A stretch of 64,000 bases of DNA, taken from NCBI GenBank assembly GCA_028278345.1, contig JANQEL010000106.1, positions 1 to 64,000 of the forward strand, given 5' to 3'. The stretch is from Myxococcota bacterium (GTDB lineage: Bacteria; Myxococcota_A; UBA9160; UBA4427). Numbering within the stretch: position 1 is the stretch's first letter; each line of letters opens with the position of its first letter. The notes under the pieces were generated by a model. The model was not told where the DNA came from. It searched no databases and was given only the letters and a program-made list of their open reading frames with translations. Below are positions 40,727-49,601 of this stretch, piece after piece. A program made the position numbers and the translations under genes.

Positions 40727-42076
40727 GTGCGAGAAGCCAGTTCAGAGTCCGATGCGGGGCGCATGCTGCAGCGACTGCAGTCGATGGGCATCCGCGCCCG
40801 GCTGCTGCCCGGCGGGCGCAGTGTGTTGGCGTCGATGCACAGCACCGGCCGCCCCATCGAGACGCTGAACGGATCGCTCGCGATCTCCGAGATCGTCTTC
40901 GCAACGGCCGGCCGCGAACAGATCAAGTGTCTGCGACCCGCGGCGCTCTTCATGCTGCCGCTGATTCCGACCGCCGACTGCAAGAACGCCGCTTCCCTCG
41001 AAGCGCGCATCCGCAGCGCGTGGAACGGACATCTCAAACAACTGCGCGACGCCGAGACCTGGTTGCGAGACCTCGGCGCCGACGTCAACGCCGCGGCCAA
41101 CGGAGCCATGCTGAGCGTTTCCCTCGCCGGCGAAGATCGCGCCGTGAAGGTGCAGGTGCGCGAGCCCCGCAAGGTCATCCTGCCGAGTCGCGGTCCGCTA
41201 TCGAGTGTCGCCCTGCAACGTCCCGAAGATCGTGTCGTCGAGGTCTCGAGGGAAATCGAATCGGCCGTCGACCTCGAGATCATGATCACCAACCGGTTGC
41301 AGGAACTCGCGAACATCGATCGCCGCCTCCAGGAAGAAGAACGACGACGCGCCATGTCGATGTCGGCGACCATCGTCGACCTCTCGGACGCGCCGAAGGA
41401 ACGATCGCTGCGCATCCTCCTCGTGGGGGAACAACTCGCGCGTGAACGCAGCGCGATCGACTCCCTGCGCTTGCGCAACTACGAGGTCGTGATCGCCCAG
41501 AGTCTCAACGAAGCGATCGACTGCTATGACCGGATCTCCCCCGAACTCGTGATGGCGGACGTGAACCTCGGGCGCTCCGAGGGCATCGAACTGATCCCGG
41601 CGCTGCGCGCCGTCGTGGGCGTCGAAGAGATCCCCGTCATCCTCGTCGACACCCACCGCCGTGCTTCACGTCGCAAGGCCGCCCAGCAGGCCGGGGCGAT
41701 CGGCTATCTCGGCTACCCGATCGACGTCTCGAAGATCGCCGCCCACCTCGAACGCACGATCAAACAGCCGAAGCGCCGGCGCTTCACCCGCTATCCGCAA
41801 CAGCTATCGATCCAGATCGACGGCGCCACGATGCCCTCGACGGCAACGCTGCTCGGCCGCGGCGGTGTGATGGTGCGAAGCGACGAGTACTTCGCCGAGG
41901 GCATGGTCAAGCGCTGCGATCTCACCATTCCGGCGATGGGAAGGCATCTGCACTTCGACGCCGAGGTGCTCTACCAGGTGCAGGAATCGGGTCACCGCGG
42001 CTTCGGCCTGCAGTTCCAGTCGATGCACTCGGGCGACGAAGCCGGGCTCATCGAGTACCTGCACCACTTGCGCTGA
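40727..42076 (+). CDS. Degenerate response regulator with PilZ domain
   Basis: A 449-residue signalling protein. An N-terminal ~190-residue region is uncharacterised, followed by a short charged helix with a basic EEERRRA cluster. The receiver domain spans about 225-345; the phosphoacceptor-type D278 (LVMADVNLG) is kept, but the N-terminal acidic pair is G-E and the conserved Lys-Pro is Tyr-Pro (GYP, 329-331), so phosphotransfer is doubtful. The C-terminal PilZ domain has R-R-F-T-R-Y (c-di-GMP RxxxR region), but the second motif reads LLGRGGVMV instead of DxSxxG. It starts at GTG 40727. It converges on the esterase/lar/che block. Confidence 0.82.
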   Translation: MREASSESDAGRMLQRLQSMGIRARLLPGGRSVLASMHSTGRPIETLNGSLAISEIVFATAGREQIKCLRPAALFMLPLIPTADCKNAASLEARIRSAWNGHLKQLRDAETWLRDLGADVNAAANGAMLSVSLAGEDRAVKVQVREPRKVILPSRGPLSSVALQRPEDRVVEVSREIESAVDLEIMITNRLQELANIDRRLQEEERRRAMSMSATIVDLSDAPKERSLRILLVGEQLARERSAIDSLRLRNYEVVIAQSLNEAIDCYDRISPELVMADVNLGRSEGIELIPALRAVVGVEEIPVILVDTHRRASRRKAAQQAGAIGYLGYPIDVSKIAAHLERTIKQPKRRRFTRYPQQLSIQIDGATMPSTATLLGRGGVMVRSDEYFAEGMVKRCDLTIPAMGRHLHFDAEVLYQVQESGHRGFGLQFQSMHSGDEAGLIEYLHHLR

Positions 42077-42852: not shown

Positions 42853-44136
42853 CTAGGCGAGTTCTTCGCGCGCTGCGTCTTCGGCGGCACGCACGACGTC
42901 GCGCAGCGGGGCTTCGTGTTTGCGCGCCGCGTGCTTGCAGTCGTCGTACTCGGCCGACACCTCGATGCGCCCGTCGGGAGCCGTCACGAACTTGACTCCG
43001 ATGCGGCCGAAGGGAGTCGAGATCTTTCGCGTCTCGCGCGGGACGATCACGCGATCCCAATCCGTCGCGCGAACTCCGAGGGTGGTCGATTCGGTGAGGA
43101 GAAGCTGCGTCAGCGTGAGTCGTCGATCGGGCCGGGCGAGCACGCGCACCAGGAAGCCCGGGCGATTCTTCTTCATCTGCACGTTCTGGAGCGAGACGTC
43201 GAGGGCGCCCGCTTCGAACAGACGCTCCATCAGGTAGTCGAAGTGCTCGGGATTGAAGTCGTCGAGATTGCACTCGAGGCAGACGATGCGATCCGACGAG
43301 AGGGGCGAGACCTCGCCGAGCACCGCACGCAGCACGTTGGGCATCGGGCCCGGGCGATCGTTGCCCGCACCGAGGCCGATGCGATCGATCGTCATCGCGG
43401 GCATCACGCCGAAGTCATCGACCTGGCTGCGCAGGATCGCTGCGCCGGTCGGCGTCACGGTTTCCCACTCGACGTTCGCGGGAACCGTCGGTACGCCGCG
43501 CAGGAGTTCGATCGTGGCCGGAGCCGGCAGGGGCAGCAGCCCGTGATCCGTATACACGGTGCCGTGACCGAGGGCGACTGGCGACGATGTCACCCGCTCG
43601 ATCCCGAGGGCTTCGAGCCCGATCGCCATCCCCGTGATGTCGACGATCGCGTCGACAGCACCGACCTCGTGGAAGTGGACTTCTTCGGGCGAGACCCCGT
43701 GCACCCGACCCTCGGCGATCGCGAGGGCCTCGAAGCAGGCGAGCGTACGCGCCTTCACTCTTTCTGCGAGATCTGCGCGCTCGAGTTGACGTCGGATCTT
43801 CGGATACGCGCGACCGTGGCCGTGATGATGCCCGTGAACATGGATGTGGGGTTCGGCGATCTCGTGGGAATGCGAATGCGTGTGGCCGGGCTTCTTTTTC
43901 GCCTTCGCCGCCCTCTTCTTCTTCGCACCCGGAACCACCACCTCGAGATGCTTCGCTGCAAGCGCACCCCGCGACACCTTCTTCACGCGAAGCTTGAACT
44001 CGAGCCCGAGACCTGCGAGCCCCGCTTCGAGTTCCTTGCGCGAGAGCCCCAGGTCGAGCAGGGCCGCCAGCATCATGTTGCCCGCGATGCCCGAGAAGCA
44101 ATCGAGGTGGAGCACGCGCCCGCTCTCGCTCCGCAT
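42853..44136 (-). CDS. larC: LarC, nickel insertion protein of the nickel-pincer cofactor
   Basis: About 427 residues. LarC inserts nickel into pyridinium-3,5-bisthiocarboxylate mononucleotide in a CTP-dependent reaction. The N-terminus HLDCFSGIAGNMMLAALLDLG is diagnostic. A basic linker (KKKRAAKAKKK) leads to a strongly His-rich stretch (GHTHSHSH...HIHVHGHHHGHG) that should bind nickel. Then come PEEVHFHEVGAVDAIVDI, GPMPNVLRAVLGE and C-terminal NLDDFNPEHFDYLME, all family blocks. It starts 17 bases past the larB stop. No ribosomal frameshift (as in lactobacillus larC1/C2) is seen; the gene is one frame. Confidence 0.95.
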   Translation of the reverse strand: MRSESGRVLHLDCFSGIAGNMMLAALLDLGLSRKELEAGLAGLGLEFKLRVKKVSRGALAAKHLEVVVPGAKKKRAAKAKKKPGHTHSHSHEIAEPHIHVHGHHHGHGRAYPKIRRQLERADLAERVKARTLACFEALAIAEGRVHGVSPEEVHFHEVGAVDAIVDITGMAIGLEALGIERVTSSPVALGHGTVYTDHGLLPLPAPATIELLRGVPTVPANVEWETVTPTGAAILRSQVDDFGVMPAMTIDRIGLGAGNDRPGPMPNVLRAVLGEVSPLSSDRIVCLECNLDDFNPEHFDYLMERLFEAGALDVSLQNVQMKKNRPGFLVRVLARPDRRLTLTQLLLTESTTLGVRATDWDRVIVPRETRKISTPFGRIGVKFVTAPDGRIEVSAEYDDCKHAARKHEAPLRDVVRAAEDAAREELA

Positions 44137-44152
44137 CTTCCGGGAGGCGGAG

Positions 44153-44902
44153 CTAGAGCCGGTTGATGAGCGTCGCGACATACGCGGCCCCGAACCCATT
44201 GTCGATGTTCACCACGGTGACGTTCGACGAACAACTGGTGAGCATGCCAAGCAGCGCCGCGATGCCGCCGAGCGCCGCGCCATAGCCGACGCTCGTCGGA
44301 ACGGCGATCACCGGCTTGTCGACCAGTCCGCCGACCACCGACGGCAGCGCCCCTTCCATTCCCGCTACACAGATCACCACGCGTGCGTTCGCGAGAACCT
44401 CCGTCGAAGCAAGCAGGCGGTGAATGCCCGCCACGCCCACATCCGAAAGCGTGTCCACCTTGTTGCCGAAGCAGCGCGCCACCGCCGCGGCCTCGGCGGC
44501 CACCGGCAGATCGCTCGTCCCGGCGGTCACGACGGCGACGGTGCCCTTGCCCACGATGGGCACCTCGACCGGGCCATACCAGAGCAGGCGCCCCACCTCG
44601 TCGTACTCGCCGCTACCGAGTTCGGCCTGCACCTGCGCTGCCGTCTCGGCTTCGATCCGCGTCACCAGAACGTTCTGCCCGGCCTCGCGCAACGCAGTCG
44701 CCACATCGACGATCTGCGCCGCCGTCTTCCCGGGCCCGTAGACCACTTCGGGGATGCCGATGCGCAGCGAGCGCTGGGTGTCGACGCGGGCGTGCTCGGT
44801 GTCGACGAAGGGGAAGTGCGCGAGGCGCTTTACCGCGGCGTCGAGCTCGACGTCACCGCGCTGCACACCCTCGAGAAGTTGTCGGAGCTCGTCGCGATCC
44901 AC
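44153..44902 (-). CDS. larB: LarB, pyridinium-3,5-biscarboxylate mononucleotide synthase
   Basis: A 249-residue PurE-like enzyme that carboxylates and hydrolyses nicotinate adenine dinucleotide in the first step of nickel-pincer cofactor synthesis. The C-terminal PurE-like domain is clear: VAVVTAGTSDLPVAAEAA, GVAGIHRLL, and GMEGALPSVVGGLV followed by VIAVPTSVGYGAAL and the terminal SCSSNVTVVNIDNGFGAA. Length is normal. It lies between the chemotaxis genes and larC; larE and larA are not in the window. Confidence 0.96.
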   Translation of the reverse strand: MDRDELRQLLEGVQRGDVELDAAVKRLAHFPFVDTEHARVDTQRSLRIGIPEVVYGPGKTAAQIVDVATALREAGQNVLVTRIEAETAAQVQAELGSGEYDEVGRLLWYGPVEVPIVGKGTVAVVTAGTSDLPVAAEAAAVARCFGNKVDTLSDVGVAGIHRLLASTEVLANARVVICVAGMEGALPSVVGGLVDKPVIAVPTSVGYGAALGGIAALLGMLTSCSSNVTVVNIDNGFGAAYVATLINRL

Positions 44903-44968: not shown

Positions 44969-45589
44969 TCAAACCTGGGGGGCCGCGGAAGCGTTCCCGT
45001 CTTCCTCACGATCGGGGATCAACACCACCAATCCCCCGAGCTGCCCGTCCTGGTCGACCAGCTCGCACTCGATCCACAGCTCGCCGGTCGCGGGGCGCGA
45101 AGCCGCCAGGCCTTCGAGCTGTTCGAACGCCGAGTCGAGGGAGAGCATCGGGATCGAAGGCAGCAGGCGCGCGCCGAGGGTGTCGGCGATCGCGGTGGCC
45201 ACGTGGGAGGCCAGCACGTTGCCCACCTCCATCAGCGCCGACTCGACGATCTCGGGCGGCAGGAAGCCCTTCTCCTGGCCCACCAGTTGTCGCACCACCG
45301 CATCGCACATCTCGCGGCGGAAGAGCACCGCCATCACGGCGTTGAGACAACCGTCGAATTCGAAGATCACACCCGACGACCACTCGAACTGCGCGAACTC
45401 GACATCGTCGGACTCGTCGAGGACGGGGGCGCCCTCGCCCGCCATCTGCACACCGGTGAGCCGCACGCGCGGCACGTCCATGCGAATCGTATGCCCCGTC
45501 ATCTGCGAGAACGCACCCGCAGCGTGACCCGCGCCGATGTTCGCGAGTTCGCTCAGCCGATCGATCTTGGCTTCCTGTGCGGTCAACAT
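44969..45589 (-). CDS. cheC: CheC-family CheY-P phosphatase
   Basis: A 206-residue CheC/CheX-type protein. Site 1 is seen at LSELANIGAGHAA (Glu and Asn of the E-x(2-3)-N motif), site 2 at ESALMEVGNVLASH (Glu and Asn). Both catalytic pairs are therefore present, and it should dephosphorylate the CheY encoded three genes upstream. The C-terminal ~25 residues are acidic and probably disordered. It follows cheA by 31 bases on the same strand. In this cluster it may stand in for CheZ and for the missing CheB/CheR adaptation. Confidence 0.85.
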   Translation of the reverse strand: MLTAQEAKIDRLSELANIGAGHAAGAFSQMTGHTIRMDVPRVRLTGVQMAGEGAPVLDESDDVEFAQFEWSSGVIFEFDGCLNAVMAVLFRREMCDAVVRQLVGQEKGFLPPEIVESALMEVGNVLASHVATAIADTLGARLLPSIPMLSLDSAFEQLEGLAASRPATGELWIECELVDQDGQLGGLVVLIPDREEDGNASAAPQV

Positions 45590-45620: not shown

Positions 45621-46772
45621 CTAGACGAGCTGATTCAGGTCGAGCAGGAAAACGGGACTTCCGTCGTCGAGGTTGGTCATGCCCGCAAGCGTCTTGATGC
45701 TCGAGAGCAGTTTCGGAACGGATTTGACGTAGACCTCCTGCTGGCTCGCGAAACGATCGACGCGCAAGGCGACGATCTCACCGCGCACTTGAGTCAGCGC
45801 AAGCGAGATCGGCTGCTCTCTACCCGCCGCGTCTGGACTTCTTATCGGTTGGAGGGCGAGACAACGTGCGAGATCCAGCACAAGAATCGGATCGTCGCCG
45901 ATCATCGCGAACGCTTCGCCACCGCTTTCTTCGAGGCAATGCGATTCGATTTCGAGAATGCGCTCAACCTTGGTAATGGGGAGAGCCACACACTCGCCGG
46001 CCACTTCGACCAAGACGACGCGCTGCACCGCCGCCGTGATCGGCACCTGGAAGCGCGTCGTCGTGCCCTGTCCCGCCGTGGTGGAAAGTTCGATCGAGCC
46101 GCCGAGGGCTTCGATCGTGGCCTTCACCGCGTCCATCCCGACACCGCGGCCGGAGACTTCCGAAACCTGCGCCGCGGTCGAGAGCCCGGGGCGGAAGATC
46201 AGGCTCGCGATCTCTTCGGCGGGCAGATCTTCGGCGAGGCCTTCGTGGATCAAGCCGGCGTCGACGGCGCGACGTCGAACCGCATCGAGATCGATGCCCT
46301 GGCCGTCGTCGTTCAGCTCGATCACGATGGAGTTCTTCTCGCGGCGCGCCTCGATGACCACCTGCCCGACCTCGGTCTTGCCCGCGCGAATGCGGTCTTC
46401 GACGGTTTCGAGGCCGTGGTCGACGGCGTTGCGAATCATGTGGAGCAGGGGCTCGTTCAGGCGATCGAGGATCGAGCGATCGAGCTCGAGTTCGGTACCG
46501 AGCAACTGCACGTCCACGCGCTTGCCGAGGGACTCGGCGACCTGGCGCGCAACGCGGGGGAGGTTTTCGAGCACGCGCGAGAGCGGGGCCGTGCGCAGAT
46601 CGAGCACCCGCCGCTGCAATTCGTTGACGCGCCGCTCGACGCGATCGAATTGTTCGGCCTGCTCGGCGCCGTGATCGCCCTTGAGGGTCACGCGGCGCAG
46701 CTGGCGCGAGGTGAGGATCACTTCGCCTACGGCACCGAGGAAGCGATCGAGGGATTGGGTGCGCACGCGCAC
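45621..46772 (-). CDS. cheA: CheA histidine kinase, C-terminal part (frameshifted)
   Basis: The larger piece of a split CheA: dimerisation helices (about 1-70), HATPase_c domain (N box LLHMIRNAVDHGLE, G1 NDDGQGID, G2 SGRGVGMDAVKATI) and CheW-like coupling domain (about 255-380; PITKVERILEIE). The GTG at 46772 is only a possible internal start. The frame stays open upstream through a proline/acid-rich linker to the A10 tract at 46889-46898, where a -1 shift from the HPt piece would give one full CheA of about 585 residues. All ATP-binding motifs are intact, so this is not an old pseudogene. Confidence 0.85.
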   Translation of the reverse strand: MRVRTQSLDRFLGAVGEVILTSRQLRRVTLKGDHGAEQAEQFDRVERRVNELQRRVLDLRTAPLSRVLENLPRVARQVAESLGKRVDVQLLGTELELDRSILDRLNEPLLHMIRNAVDHGLETVEDRIRAGKTEVGQVVIEARREKNSIVIELNDDGQGIDLDAVRRRAVDAGLIHEGLAEDLPAEEIASLIFRPGLSTAAQVSEVSGRGVGMDAVKATIEALGGSIELSTTAGQGTTTRFQVPITAAVQRVVLVEVAGECVALPITKVERILEIESHCLEESGGEAFAMIGDDPILVLDLARCLALQPIRSPDAAGREQPISLALTQVRGEIVALRVDRFASQQEVYVKSVPKLLSSIKTLAGMTNLDDGSPVFLLDLNQLV

Positions 46773-46876
46773 CGTCGAGGCCGGTGCCGGGAGCTTGGGA
46801 AGTGCGCTTTCCGCGCGGGCGGGCGCCTCGCTTTCGGCGCCGCTCGCCTCCGCCTCGTCGCGCGGAACGACGGGGG

Positions 46877-47380
46877 TCAGTTCAAGAGTTTTTTTTTTGC
46901 TCCGGACTCGGCCTCGAGGGCGTTCATCACGGCGACGAGTTCGACGTCCAGCTCCGCGGCATCGGGAGGCTCGGGCTCACCGGTCGGCGCAGGAGACTCC
47001 ACCGCCGGTGCAGAGAGCAACTCGACCAGCTCGGGGCGCAGTGGCGGCGGCTCACCGGTCTCGCGCACCACCTCGACCATCTGCTCGAGACCATCGAGCC
47101 CGCTGAACAGCACCGAGAGGGAGTCGCCCGGCGGCACCCGTCCGCTCGACCGGATTCCCTCCATGCGGTCTTCGAGGGCATGGGCGACCTGCTCGACCGC
47201 GTCATAACCCACCGACGCTGCCATCGACTTGATGGAATGCGCCATGCGGAAGATGACGTCGATGGACTCGACCGAAGCCGTGTCCTTCTCGAGCTCGAGC
47301 AGGGCGCGGCTGATCTCCGCGAGCTGCTCGGCGGCCTCTTCGAGGAAGAGCGCCCGGAATTTGCCCATGTCGAGCGCCAC
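46877..47380 (-). CDS. cheA: CheA histidine kinase, N-terminal HPt part (frameshifted)
   Basis: A 167-residue frame holding the phosphoacceptor HPt domain: H48 in FRMAHSIKSMAAS, surrounded by the four-helix bundle of CheA P1, followed by a Pro/Glu-rich linker. It ends at a TGA only six codons after GCA-AAA-AAA-AAA. The kinase core lies in the -1 frame directly after, so the natural product would be one CheA if the ribosome or RNA polymerase slips on the A run, or if the reference has one A too few (or two too many). It starts four bases before the cheY stop. Confidence 0.85.
   Translation of the reverse strand: MALDMGKFRALFLEEAAEQLAEISRALLELEKDTASVESIDVIFRMAHSIKSMAASVGYDAVEQVAHALEDRMEGIRSSGRVPPGDSLSVLFSGLDGLEQMVEVVRETGEPPPLRPELVELLSAPAVESPAPTGEPEPPDAAELDVELVAVMNALEAESGAKKKLLN
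46889..46898 (-). other. A10 slippery tract inside cheA
   Basis: Ten consecutive T on the plus strand (ten A in the mRNA), exactly at the border of the two cheA frames. A -1 ribosomal slip on A-AAA-AAA, or one extra A added during transcription, restores a continuous CheA. Confidence 0.8.
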
Positions 47381-47383
47381 GAC

Positions 47384-47764
47384 CTACGCCTCGTCGCCCT
47401 GCTTGTCGAGGATCTTGCCCAGCGTCGCGATCACCGCGTCGGGCTTGAAGGGCTTCACGATGAAGTCCTTGGCACCGGCCTGGATCGCCTCGGTGACGAG
47501 GGTCTCCTGACCGAGGGCGCTGCACATCACGACGCGCGCCTGGGCGTCTTCCGCGAGGATGCCCTTCACGGCGTCGATGCCGGAGCGCTTGGGCATCACG
47601 ATGTCCATCGTCACGAGGTCGGGGCGCAGTTCCAGGAACTGGTCGACGGCCTCGATGCCGTTGGTCGCTTCACCCACGACTTCATATCCCTCGGGCTCGA
47701 TGATCTCGCGGATCATCTGGCGCATGAAGGAAGCGTCATCTGCAATCAATACTCGAGCTTTCAT
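47384..47764 (-). CDS. cheY: CheY-like response regulator
   Basis: A 126-residue single receiver domain. D9-D10 (LIADDASFMRQM), phosphoacceptor D54 (VTMDIVMPKRSG), Ser82 at the Thr position (VVMCSALG) and Lys104 (FIVKPF) are all in place, so it is phosphorylatable by the CheA downstream. The S-F-M-R-Q-M-I-R-E-I-I stretch after the DD pair is typical of CheY paired with CheC. It lies between cheW and cheA with eight-base and four-base gaps. Confidence 0.95.
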   Translation of the reverse strand: MKARVLIADDASFMRQMIREIIEPEGYEVVGEATNGIEAVDQFLELRPDLVTMDIVMPKRSGIDAVKGILAEDAQARVVMCSALGQETLVTEAIQAGAKDFIVKPFKPDAVIATLGKILDKQGDEA

Positions 47765-47772
47765 GGGGTCTC

Positions 47773-48273
47773 CTAGGAGGGGTACGGTGCTGCTCCGGAC
47801 ATCTGCCCCGATGTCCGGCTTTCGATCACTTCTTCTGCCGTGGCGACGAGGCGCACGGGGTTCACGATGCTGACGACCCGCCCGTCGAGGGGGCGTCGCT
47901 CGACCACGATGTCATCGCCGTGGGGTCGACCGGCTTCGCCATCGACGAGGCCACAGACACTGTCGATCGGAAGGCCCAGTTGACGACCGCCATCGGGTCG
48001 ATCGGTAACGACGAGAAAGGGCTGCACCTCGTCGTCTGCGCGCTGCGCCATCGGTTCTCCGCCGAGCAGTAGATGCGACGCGATCACCGGCAGGGCTTCT
48101 CCGTGCCAGTTCATCACGCCACCGGTCTCTCGCGGTAGAGTGGGTACGCAGCGCACGCCGCTTTGTTCCACCACTTCGAGGACCTCGGAGATCGGCAGGG
48201 CAAAGGGGTTGCCCGACACCTCGAAGATCATCAGGCGTTGGCTCAGCCGCGGCATCGACACCGGCGCACTCAC
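47773..48273 (-). CDS. cheW: CheW coupling protein
   Basis: A 166-residue single-domain CheW (two beta-barrel subdomains) linking receptor and Che[24 protein letters not shown], then [19 protein letters not shown], then [13 protein letters not shown]. It begins with GTG overlapping the mcp stop (GTGA), so both are made together. The last ~25 residues are extra and unstructured. Confidence 0.92.
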
Positions 48274-49601
48274 GGCGTTTCCTCCGCACTCGGCGCGCTT
48301 TCCGAATCGCCCGAGCCCGCGGTGCGGTAGAGGCGCAGGTGCTCGCGCAATGCTTCGGCCACGGTCAGCAGTTCCTGCGAGCCGTCGACGATCTTGGAGA
48401 CCGCGTCGAGCTGCCCCGAGGCCATGCGCGAGATCTCTTCCTGGGCGGCGTCGTTGTCTTCGGCGCTCGACTTGAGTTCGCTCATCGAGGTGACCATGCG
48501 CTCGGCGCTGATCGCGTGGTTGTCGGCGCCGTGGAAGATCTCTTCGCTACGCGCGGCCGCTTCGCCGACCGAGGTGCTGATCTGGCTGAGCGAATCCGCG
48601 ATGGTGTTGACGTCTTCGCGCCCTTCGCTGATCACCTCGCTGCTCATGCGCATCTCGTCGGCGACTTCGCGCGTGTCGGACTGGATCTCGTGAACGAGCT
48701 TGGAGATCTCGTCGGCGCTCTTGCCCGCGCTCTCGGAGAGCTTGCGGATCTCGTCCGCCACGACCGAAAAGCCGCGCCCCGCCTCACCGGCGCGCGCCGC
48801 TTCGATCGACGCATTCAGCGAGAGCAGGTTCGTGCGATGGGCGACGCTGGTGATGATCTCGGTGATCTGGTGCACATGGCTCGTCTTCGCCTCGAGATCG
48901 AAGACCATGGCGCCCGTCTGCTCGACGCGTTCGAACACGGTGCGCATCTTTTCGATCGCGAGCTGTGAGACTTCGACGCCGTTGTTCGCCTTCTGATTCG
49001 CTTCGGCTGCGAACCCGAAGGCCTCACGCGCGCGCCCCGCGTTCAGTTCGACCTCGGAAGAGATCTCCCCGATGATCGCGTTCGTGCGCTGGAAGAGATG
49101 TCGTTGTCGCGAGTTGCCCTCGGCGGCGCGCGAAACGGTCGAGGAAATGCCCTCGTTGCCCTCGCGCACGTGCTCGATCTCGCGGGCGAGTTCCTGGGCC
49201 GCACCCTTCACCACCTCGGCGCTTTCCTGCACGCCACCCACGAACGCGTTCAAGCGTTCGAGCATGCCCTTGACGCTGGCTGCGAGGTCGTCGGTTTCGT
49301 CGGCCACGAGGCCGGGCGTGGCGTGTCGGAGTTCGACGCTGAGGTCGCCGTTGCGAATGCGTTCGGTGGCCTTGCGAAGGTCTTCGAACTTCTCACCCAG
49401 GCTTCGCGAGATCGCGAAGCCGAGACAACCCCCGACACCGAGCGCCACGAACACCGCTCCCCACTCCGGAAAGTCGAAGCCGAGAGCACGGATACCCCAC
49501 GGCAGCACGGCAGCCGACGCCGCAACCAGAAGCGATCCGAGGACGAATTTGTGGGTCAGGGCAATTCGCACCCACGCCCTATCGGCCCTTCGAAAGCGCA
49601 C
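48270..49601 (-). CDS. Methyl-accepting chemotaxis protein without a periplasmic sensor domain
   Basis: A 443-residue receptor. Two helices (about 16-40 and 48-66) are separated by only about seven residues, so there is no extracytoplasmic ligand domain; a HAMP domain follows (about 67-120). The signalling hairpin tip reads [41 protein letters not shown], the canonical MCP core. The sensor input must come from the membrane, the HAMP or a partner protein. It is the first gene of the che operon. Confidence 0.93.

Follow-up and report, generated by a model that had tools for sequence, protein, structure and literature searches.

A probable programmed frame change at a conserved A run within cheA of one class of Myxococcota

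A chemotaxis operon with a divided cheA gene

The window (the whole 64,000-nucleotide stretch of DNA that was analyzed) contains a chemotaxis operon with the gene order receptor, CheW, CheY, HPt/CheA and CheC, in which the slash marks a change of frame within cheA. The features of this operon, in the direction of transcription, were as follows.

48270..49601, minus strand: methyl-accepting chemotaxis receptor with a HAMP domain (PF00015, E 2.5e-35)
47773..48273, minus strand: CheW (PF01584, E 2.3e-16)
47384..47764, minus strand: CheY-type response regulator, directly 5' of the HPt ORF (PF00072, E 4.5e-29)
46877..47380, minus strand: HPt (P1) ORF of 167 aa, the frame-0 product (PF01627, E 7.7e-16)
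46900..46903, minus strand: GGAG, SD-like, 1 base 5' of the run, read directly; possible stimulator or pause
46889..46898, minus strand: A10 slippery run, read directly; the HPt frame is GCA AAA AAA AAA
46882..46884, minus strand: TGA stop of the third frame, 1 codon past the run, a mark of the A9-10 genera
46877..46879, minus strand: TGA stop of the HPt frame, read directly, 3 codons past the run
45621..46888, minus strand: -1 frame with linker, P3 dimerization, P4 kinase and P5 CheW-like domains (PF02895, PF02518, PF01584)
44969..45589, minus strand: CheC-like phosphatase, 3' of cheA (PF04509, E 4.8e-15)

According to the first-pass annotation, the HPt frame and the linker-kinase-CheW frame of cheA meet exactly at ten A's and a -1 shift is needed to join them. 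Both statements were confirmed by direct reading of the minus strand from 46903 to 46877 (GGAGC AAAAAAAAAA CTC TTG AAC TGA), with the domains placed by Pfam, and it was agreed that a run of A8 or A11 would be in frame. The run contains two phased A_AAA_AAA heptamers. The HPt ORF starts with GTG at 47380 (an ATG at 47368 is a possible alternative) and ends with ...GAKKKLLN and the stop codon. Across the joint, the -1 frame reads ...KKK-TLELTPVV... and continues through a linker rich in Pro, Ala and Glu into H-kinase_dim, HATPase_c and CheW.

Comparison with the PDB placed the CheA P1 chains 2ld6, 1tqg and 1i5n among the best solved relatives of the HPt ORF and matched the P3-P4-P5 frame to the CheA structures 3ja6 (E 5e-67) and 1b3q (E 1e-66). 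The catalytic motifs, previously described as intact, were read in the two ORFs: the phospho-acceptor His sits in AHSIKS, a motif seen across orthologues, and the ATP-binding boxes RNAVDHG, DDGQG and GRGVGM, also counted over orthologues, are present in the kinase frame. Joining the two frames gives a full-length CheA without a P2 domain, in the order HPt, dimerization, HATPase and CheW-like that is also found in the in-frame orthologues. The other CheA paralogues of this genome are long frames without breaks, and, besides this run, the 7,257,101-base (7.26-Mb) assembly contains no A10/T10.

Other genes lie near the operon. A LarC-type nickel insertion protein (PF01969) is encoded in a single open frame at 42853-44199 on the minus strand and is adjoined by a LarB-like gene with an AIR carboxylase domain (44153-44902); larC of Lactobacillus plantarum consists of two ORFs joined by frameshifting. 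Past the genes downstream of the operon, on the plus strand, is a gene for a response-regulator and PilZ protein (40727-42076).

Conservation of the run, its phase and the frame change

Orthologues were collected by a kinase search; with a cutoff of E <= 1e-100, 64 of the 80 genomes from the order contained the gene. A CheY-like motif was seen 5' of cheA in 60 of 64 orthologues. An orthologue was also present in a second order of the same class, and a phylum-wide sample of 379 genomes yielded none beyond this class. Two weak matches from the phylum search (G170 and G292) resemble other CheAs, with frames that stay open over a long stretch, and were rejected. The phylum was taken to be Myxococcota, as Anaeromyxobacter grouped with the same-phylum genomes in a quick RpoB tree. 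Both frames, HPt and kinase, were available for comparison in 67 genes from two orders of one class. Five loci (L014, L022, L152, L169 and L173) whose upstream sequence was too short to cover the HPt domain were not counted, and L155 was excluded for a second frame break in its kinase; this locus (genome G049) has an A9 run at the joint and may be a pseudogene or contain an assembly error.

A run of A7 to A10 was present at the joint in 57 of the 67 orthologues. The comparison of relatives that had been suggested for the A run thus returned a conserved run with a nearly uniform frame requirement: 53 of the 57 needed -1, three needed +1 and one was in frame, while all 10 run-free orthologues were in frame. 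Among the 53 orthologues needing -1, the run lengths were A7 (n = 23), A8 (n = 9), A9 (n = 4) and A10 (n = 17). An A_AAA_AAA heptamer was phased in the HPt frame in every one of the 53, which meets the X_XXY_YYZ criterion for ribosomal -1 frameshifting, and all 23 of the A7 runs began at codon position 3. Outside the joint, the related loci (237.6 kb) held only two runs of 7 or more. With the run also the sole A10/T10 of its genome and recurring at this joint in 57 of 67 orthologues, its occurrence lies far outside what chance would give. The codon-position GC pattern changed register by -1 exactly at the run. Stops in the HPt frame followed the run after a median of 3 codons versus 34 in the control and fell within 5 codons in 73% of cases versus 11%; the second order (f12) had no such close stops. 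In a within-genus comparison, base identity in four genera peaked beside the run, inside a linker that is otherwise diverging and fast evolving. As in-frame controls, 80 generic CheA loci from other lineages were taken among the matches listed; 78 stayed in one open frame across the N-terminal part and the remaining 2 were cut by contig ends.

The first-pass annotation had warned that a one-base reference error would look the same, the true gene then being a single frame. The window does come from a draft assembly of 292 contigs, and homopolymers are error-prone. Against such an error, dozens of genomes from two orders, each assembled separately, have an equal offset at A7, A8, A9 or A10; the phase is always the same, stops lie directly past the run and the run-free orthologues are in frame. 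Because the run, phase and offset are conserved over two orders and in-frame genes occur almost only without a run, this explanation was refuted and we see virtually no room for it.

Changes of run length during replication, which would switch CheA on and off by phase variation, were also considered. An A10 run is long enough for slipped-strand mutation and one relative, L168, is in frame at A10. A random run length predicts, however, that about 1/3 of the genes would be in frame, whereas only 1 of 57 was, and A7 runs are short for slipped-strand mutation yet were equally out of frame. Phase variation, which the conserved offset and phase also speak against, is therefore highly unlikely.

The layout of L168 (genome G069) is the reverse of that in the window and resembles E. 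coli dnaX: the A10 run is retained with HPt and kinase in one frame, and a -1 shift there meets a stop at once. A one-base error could also account for its frame. At three further loci (L140, L167 and L171, of a clade made up of g25 and g38) the same joint needs +1 or -2 and not -1. Both g38 members have an A7-G run and a strong SD-like site, followed by a 12-bp hairpin whose start coincides with or adjoins the stop codon of the HPt frame. In an HIV cassette, -2 shifting is reported to gain over -1 when the spacer before the structure is short (PMC5009743).

Separate initiation of the kinase would remove the need for a frame change, the locus then consisting of an HPt gene and a P3-P4-P5 kinase gene as in split CheA systems. 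A scan was performed for ATG, GTG or TTG codons with an SD-like site between the opening of the kinase frame (at most 60 nt 5' of the run) and P3. Internal GTG or ATG codons do occur in some kinase frames, a few of them with an SD-like site, but 49 of 56 lacked a start with such a site over this stretch and 12 of 56 were devoid of start codons in it. For most genomes, independent translation of the kinase was rejected because usable starts are missing. Two independent genes would also leave unexplained both the phased A run and the fact that almost no in-frame fusion has one, and we consider this arrangement very unlikely.

The frame state changed at least seven times over the kinase tree. Six independent tree pairs were available for the coupling of run and shift, and nearly always all six were concordant (median p 0.03). 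The repeated changes of frame state show that some lineages can do without the device, which is hence not essential everywhere; the same is true of the frameshift device of prfB (PMC12421855).

Sequence signals for possible ribosomal and RNA polymerase slippage

Slippage by either the ribosome or RNA polymerase had been suggested for a run of this length, and the survey supported the suggestion, with signatures favoring the polymerase at A10 and the ribosome at A7-8. Averaged by genus, SD-like pairing peaked 15 to 11 nt 5' of the run (genus-mean SD z, -0.61; p 0.01) and folding was strongest just 3' of it (mean hairpin z, -1.10 over 28 genera; p 2e-5). The SD-like energy was -6.75 in A7-8 genera versus -3.63 in A9-10 genera (p 0.0017), and the hairpin MFE was -23.3 versus -16.3 (p 0.0008). 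GC content also differs between these groups, and their hairpin z-scores were not significantly different (p 0.12). The hairpin of genus g10 was 95% paired with two compensatory cells, which is modest support only.

According to PMC1088944, transcriptional slippage takes an A/T run of roughly 9 bases or longer; such runs are the A10 of the window and, in all, the A9-10 runs of 22 shifted genes, that of the window included. Polymerase slippage yields mRNAs in all frames, and stops are therefore expected in both unproductive frames; a ribosomal -1 slip yields two frames only, so that one stop is enough. Stops in both unproductive frames have been described for Thermus dnaX (PMC1088944 and PMC5009743). 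The window meets this criterion, with stops 1 and 3 codons past the run. The contrast between run classes was sharpest in the third frame, which is neither the HPt nor the kinase frame: the median distance to a stop was 4.5 codons in A9-10, 84 in A7-8 and 90 in the control. A genus median of 15 codons or less was observed in 12 of 15 A9-10 genera versus 2 of 14 A7-8 genera (Fisher p 7e-4). This test was devised after the data had partly been seen, and on the tree the contrast was underpowered (p 0.25), with about three of five independent pairs agreeing and the rest mostly equal. Within genus g5, the third-frame stop followed after 1 codon in the A9 member (L007) and after 59 codons in the A8 member (L018).

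Run length thus seems to tell the mechanism, in that these sequence signals would fit ribosomal -1 frameshifting at A7-8 and transcriptional slippage at A9-10. For the window, the acting machine is inferred, and polymerase slippage is placed slightly ahead of the ribosome because of the A10 run, the stops in both other frames and a downstream hairpin that was no better than shuffled sequence. Against the polymerase, a GGAG adjoins the run (SD-like duplex energy of -5.9 in the 20 nt 5' of the run). A single, uniform shift direction implies ribosomal frameshifting under the GeneTack rule (PMC3711429); over the whole set, the uniform -1 direction favors the ribosome, and both machines may therefore act at A10 sites.

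The frame change could also be merely tolerated, with slippage giving enough CheA and the HPt-only product having no role. The repeated state changes on the tree, the presumably functional in-frame relatives and the absence of close stops in f12 would all fit such tolerance. Set against these are the close stops well above the control and the conserved bases round the run, and also the stimulators and stops that track run length and the retention of the device over two orders, all of which suggest selection on the signal. Mere tolerance is unlikely on balance but keeps some weight.

Proposed products and comparison with known systems

The reading that we consider probable, based on comparative sequence evidence, is a conserved programmed frame change within cheA of one Myxococcota class, giving HPt alone and full-length CheA. 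Without slippage, the 167-aa HPt (P1) domain would be made alone, and slippage at the A run would give a full-length HPt-P3-P4-P5 CheA from the same gene. In the window and the A9-10 relatives, RNA polymerase would most likely slip and added A's would give mRNAs in three frames, both unproductive frames terminating at once. In the A7-8 relatives, the ribosome is the most likely agent, through tandem tRNA-Lys slippage by -1 on A_AAA_AAA, which would be aided by the SD-like stretch 5' and the hairpin 3' of the run. How often slippage occurs is likewise an inference.

The two products that had been predicted do follow from the sequence and would be expected from it; the efficiency of the shift was not measured and there are no expression data. 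It is plausible that the two products set a kinase-to-phosphodonor ratio, as had been proposed, and there are no data on this ratio. That free HPt receives phosphate from CheA in trans and acts as an additional phosphodonor, or as a store or sink of phosphate, is inferred; the idea is reasonable because liberated P1 has been used in studies of E. coli CheA and P2 is reported not to be strictly needed for chemotaxis (both as cited in PMC10653900).

Transcriptional slippage at an A9 run in Thermus thermophilus dnaX (PMC1088944) resembles the cheA case in having an A run inside the coding region, in giving long and short products with a common N-terminus and, at A9-10 sites, in mRNAs in all frames with nearby stops in the unproductive frames, the mRNAs and products of cheA being predicted. 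Frame 0 encodes the long product in T. thermophilus and the short one in cheA, and the gene and pathway differ. E. coli dnaX undergoes ribosomal -1 frameshifting on A_AAA_AAG with an SD-like element and a stem-loop (PMC4066793 and PMC5009743). The A7-8 cheA genes share the phased A heptamer and, as putative stimulators, the 5' SD-like element and the 3' hairpin, but their heptamer is A_AAA_AAA, for which less shifting than at A_AAA_AAG has been reported in E. coli (PMC5009743), and the shift yields the longer product in cheA, unlike in E. coli dnaX. The two-ORF dnaX genes of the GeneTack survey, e.g., of Chlorobium (7 to 10 A's; PMC3711429), are like cheA in that a variable A run joins two ORFs and -1 is needed for the long product, the gene being different; the main text of that survey makes no mention of cheA, chemotaxis or histidine kinases.

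No earlier report of frameshifting or recoding in cheA or chemotaxis was found in the open-access literature, and a report elsewhere is not excluded. In E. coli, an internal start gives CheA-short, which lacks the beginning of P1. As is proposed for the cheA of the window, one gene gives two CheA forms; the short form is without the start of P1 in E. coli and is P1 alone, by the proposed recoding, in the window.

More tentatively, and with somewhat less than even confidence, we suggest that one recoding site has moved in evolution between RNA polymerase slippage (A9-10) and ribosomal frameshifting (A7-8) with its output of free HPt and full CheA unchanged. The ratio of these products may tune chemotaxis signaling, with HPt alone as a diffusible phosphodonor or sink, and three relatives would slip by -2 or +1 at this position, the two g38 members doing so before the 12-bp hairpin. 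To our knowledge, conserved bacterial frameshift genes beyond mobile elements, prfB and dnaX are few. The cheA site concerns the central chemotaxis kinase in two orders, with natural in-frame losses for comparison, and would offer a way to ask what effect free HPt has on CheA signaling. It would also be a single orthologous site where the two mechanisms, slippage of the polymerase and frameshifting by the ribosome, appear to substitute for one another.
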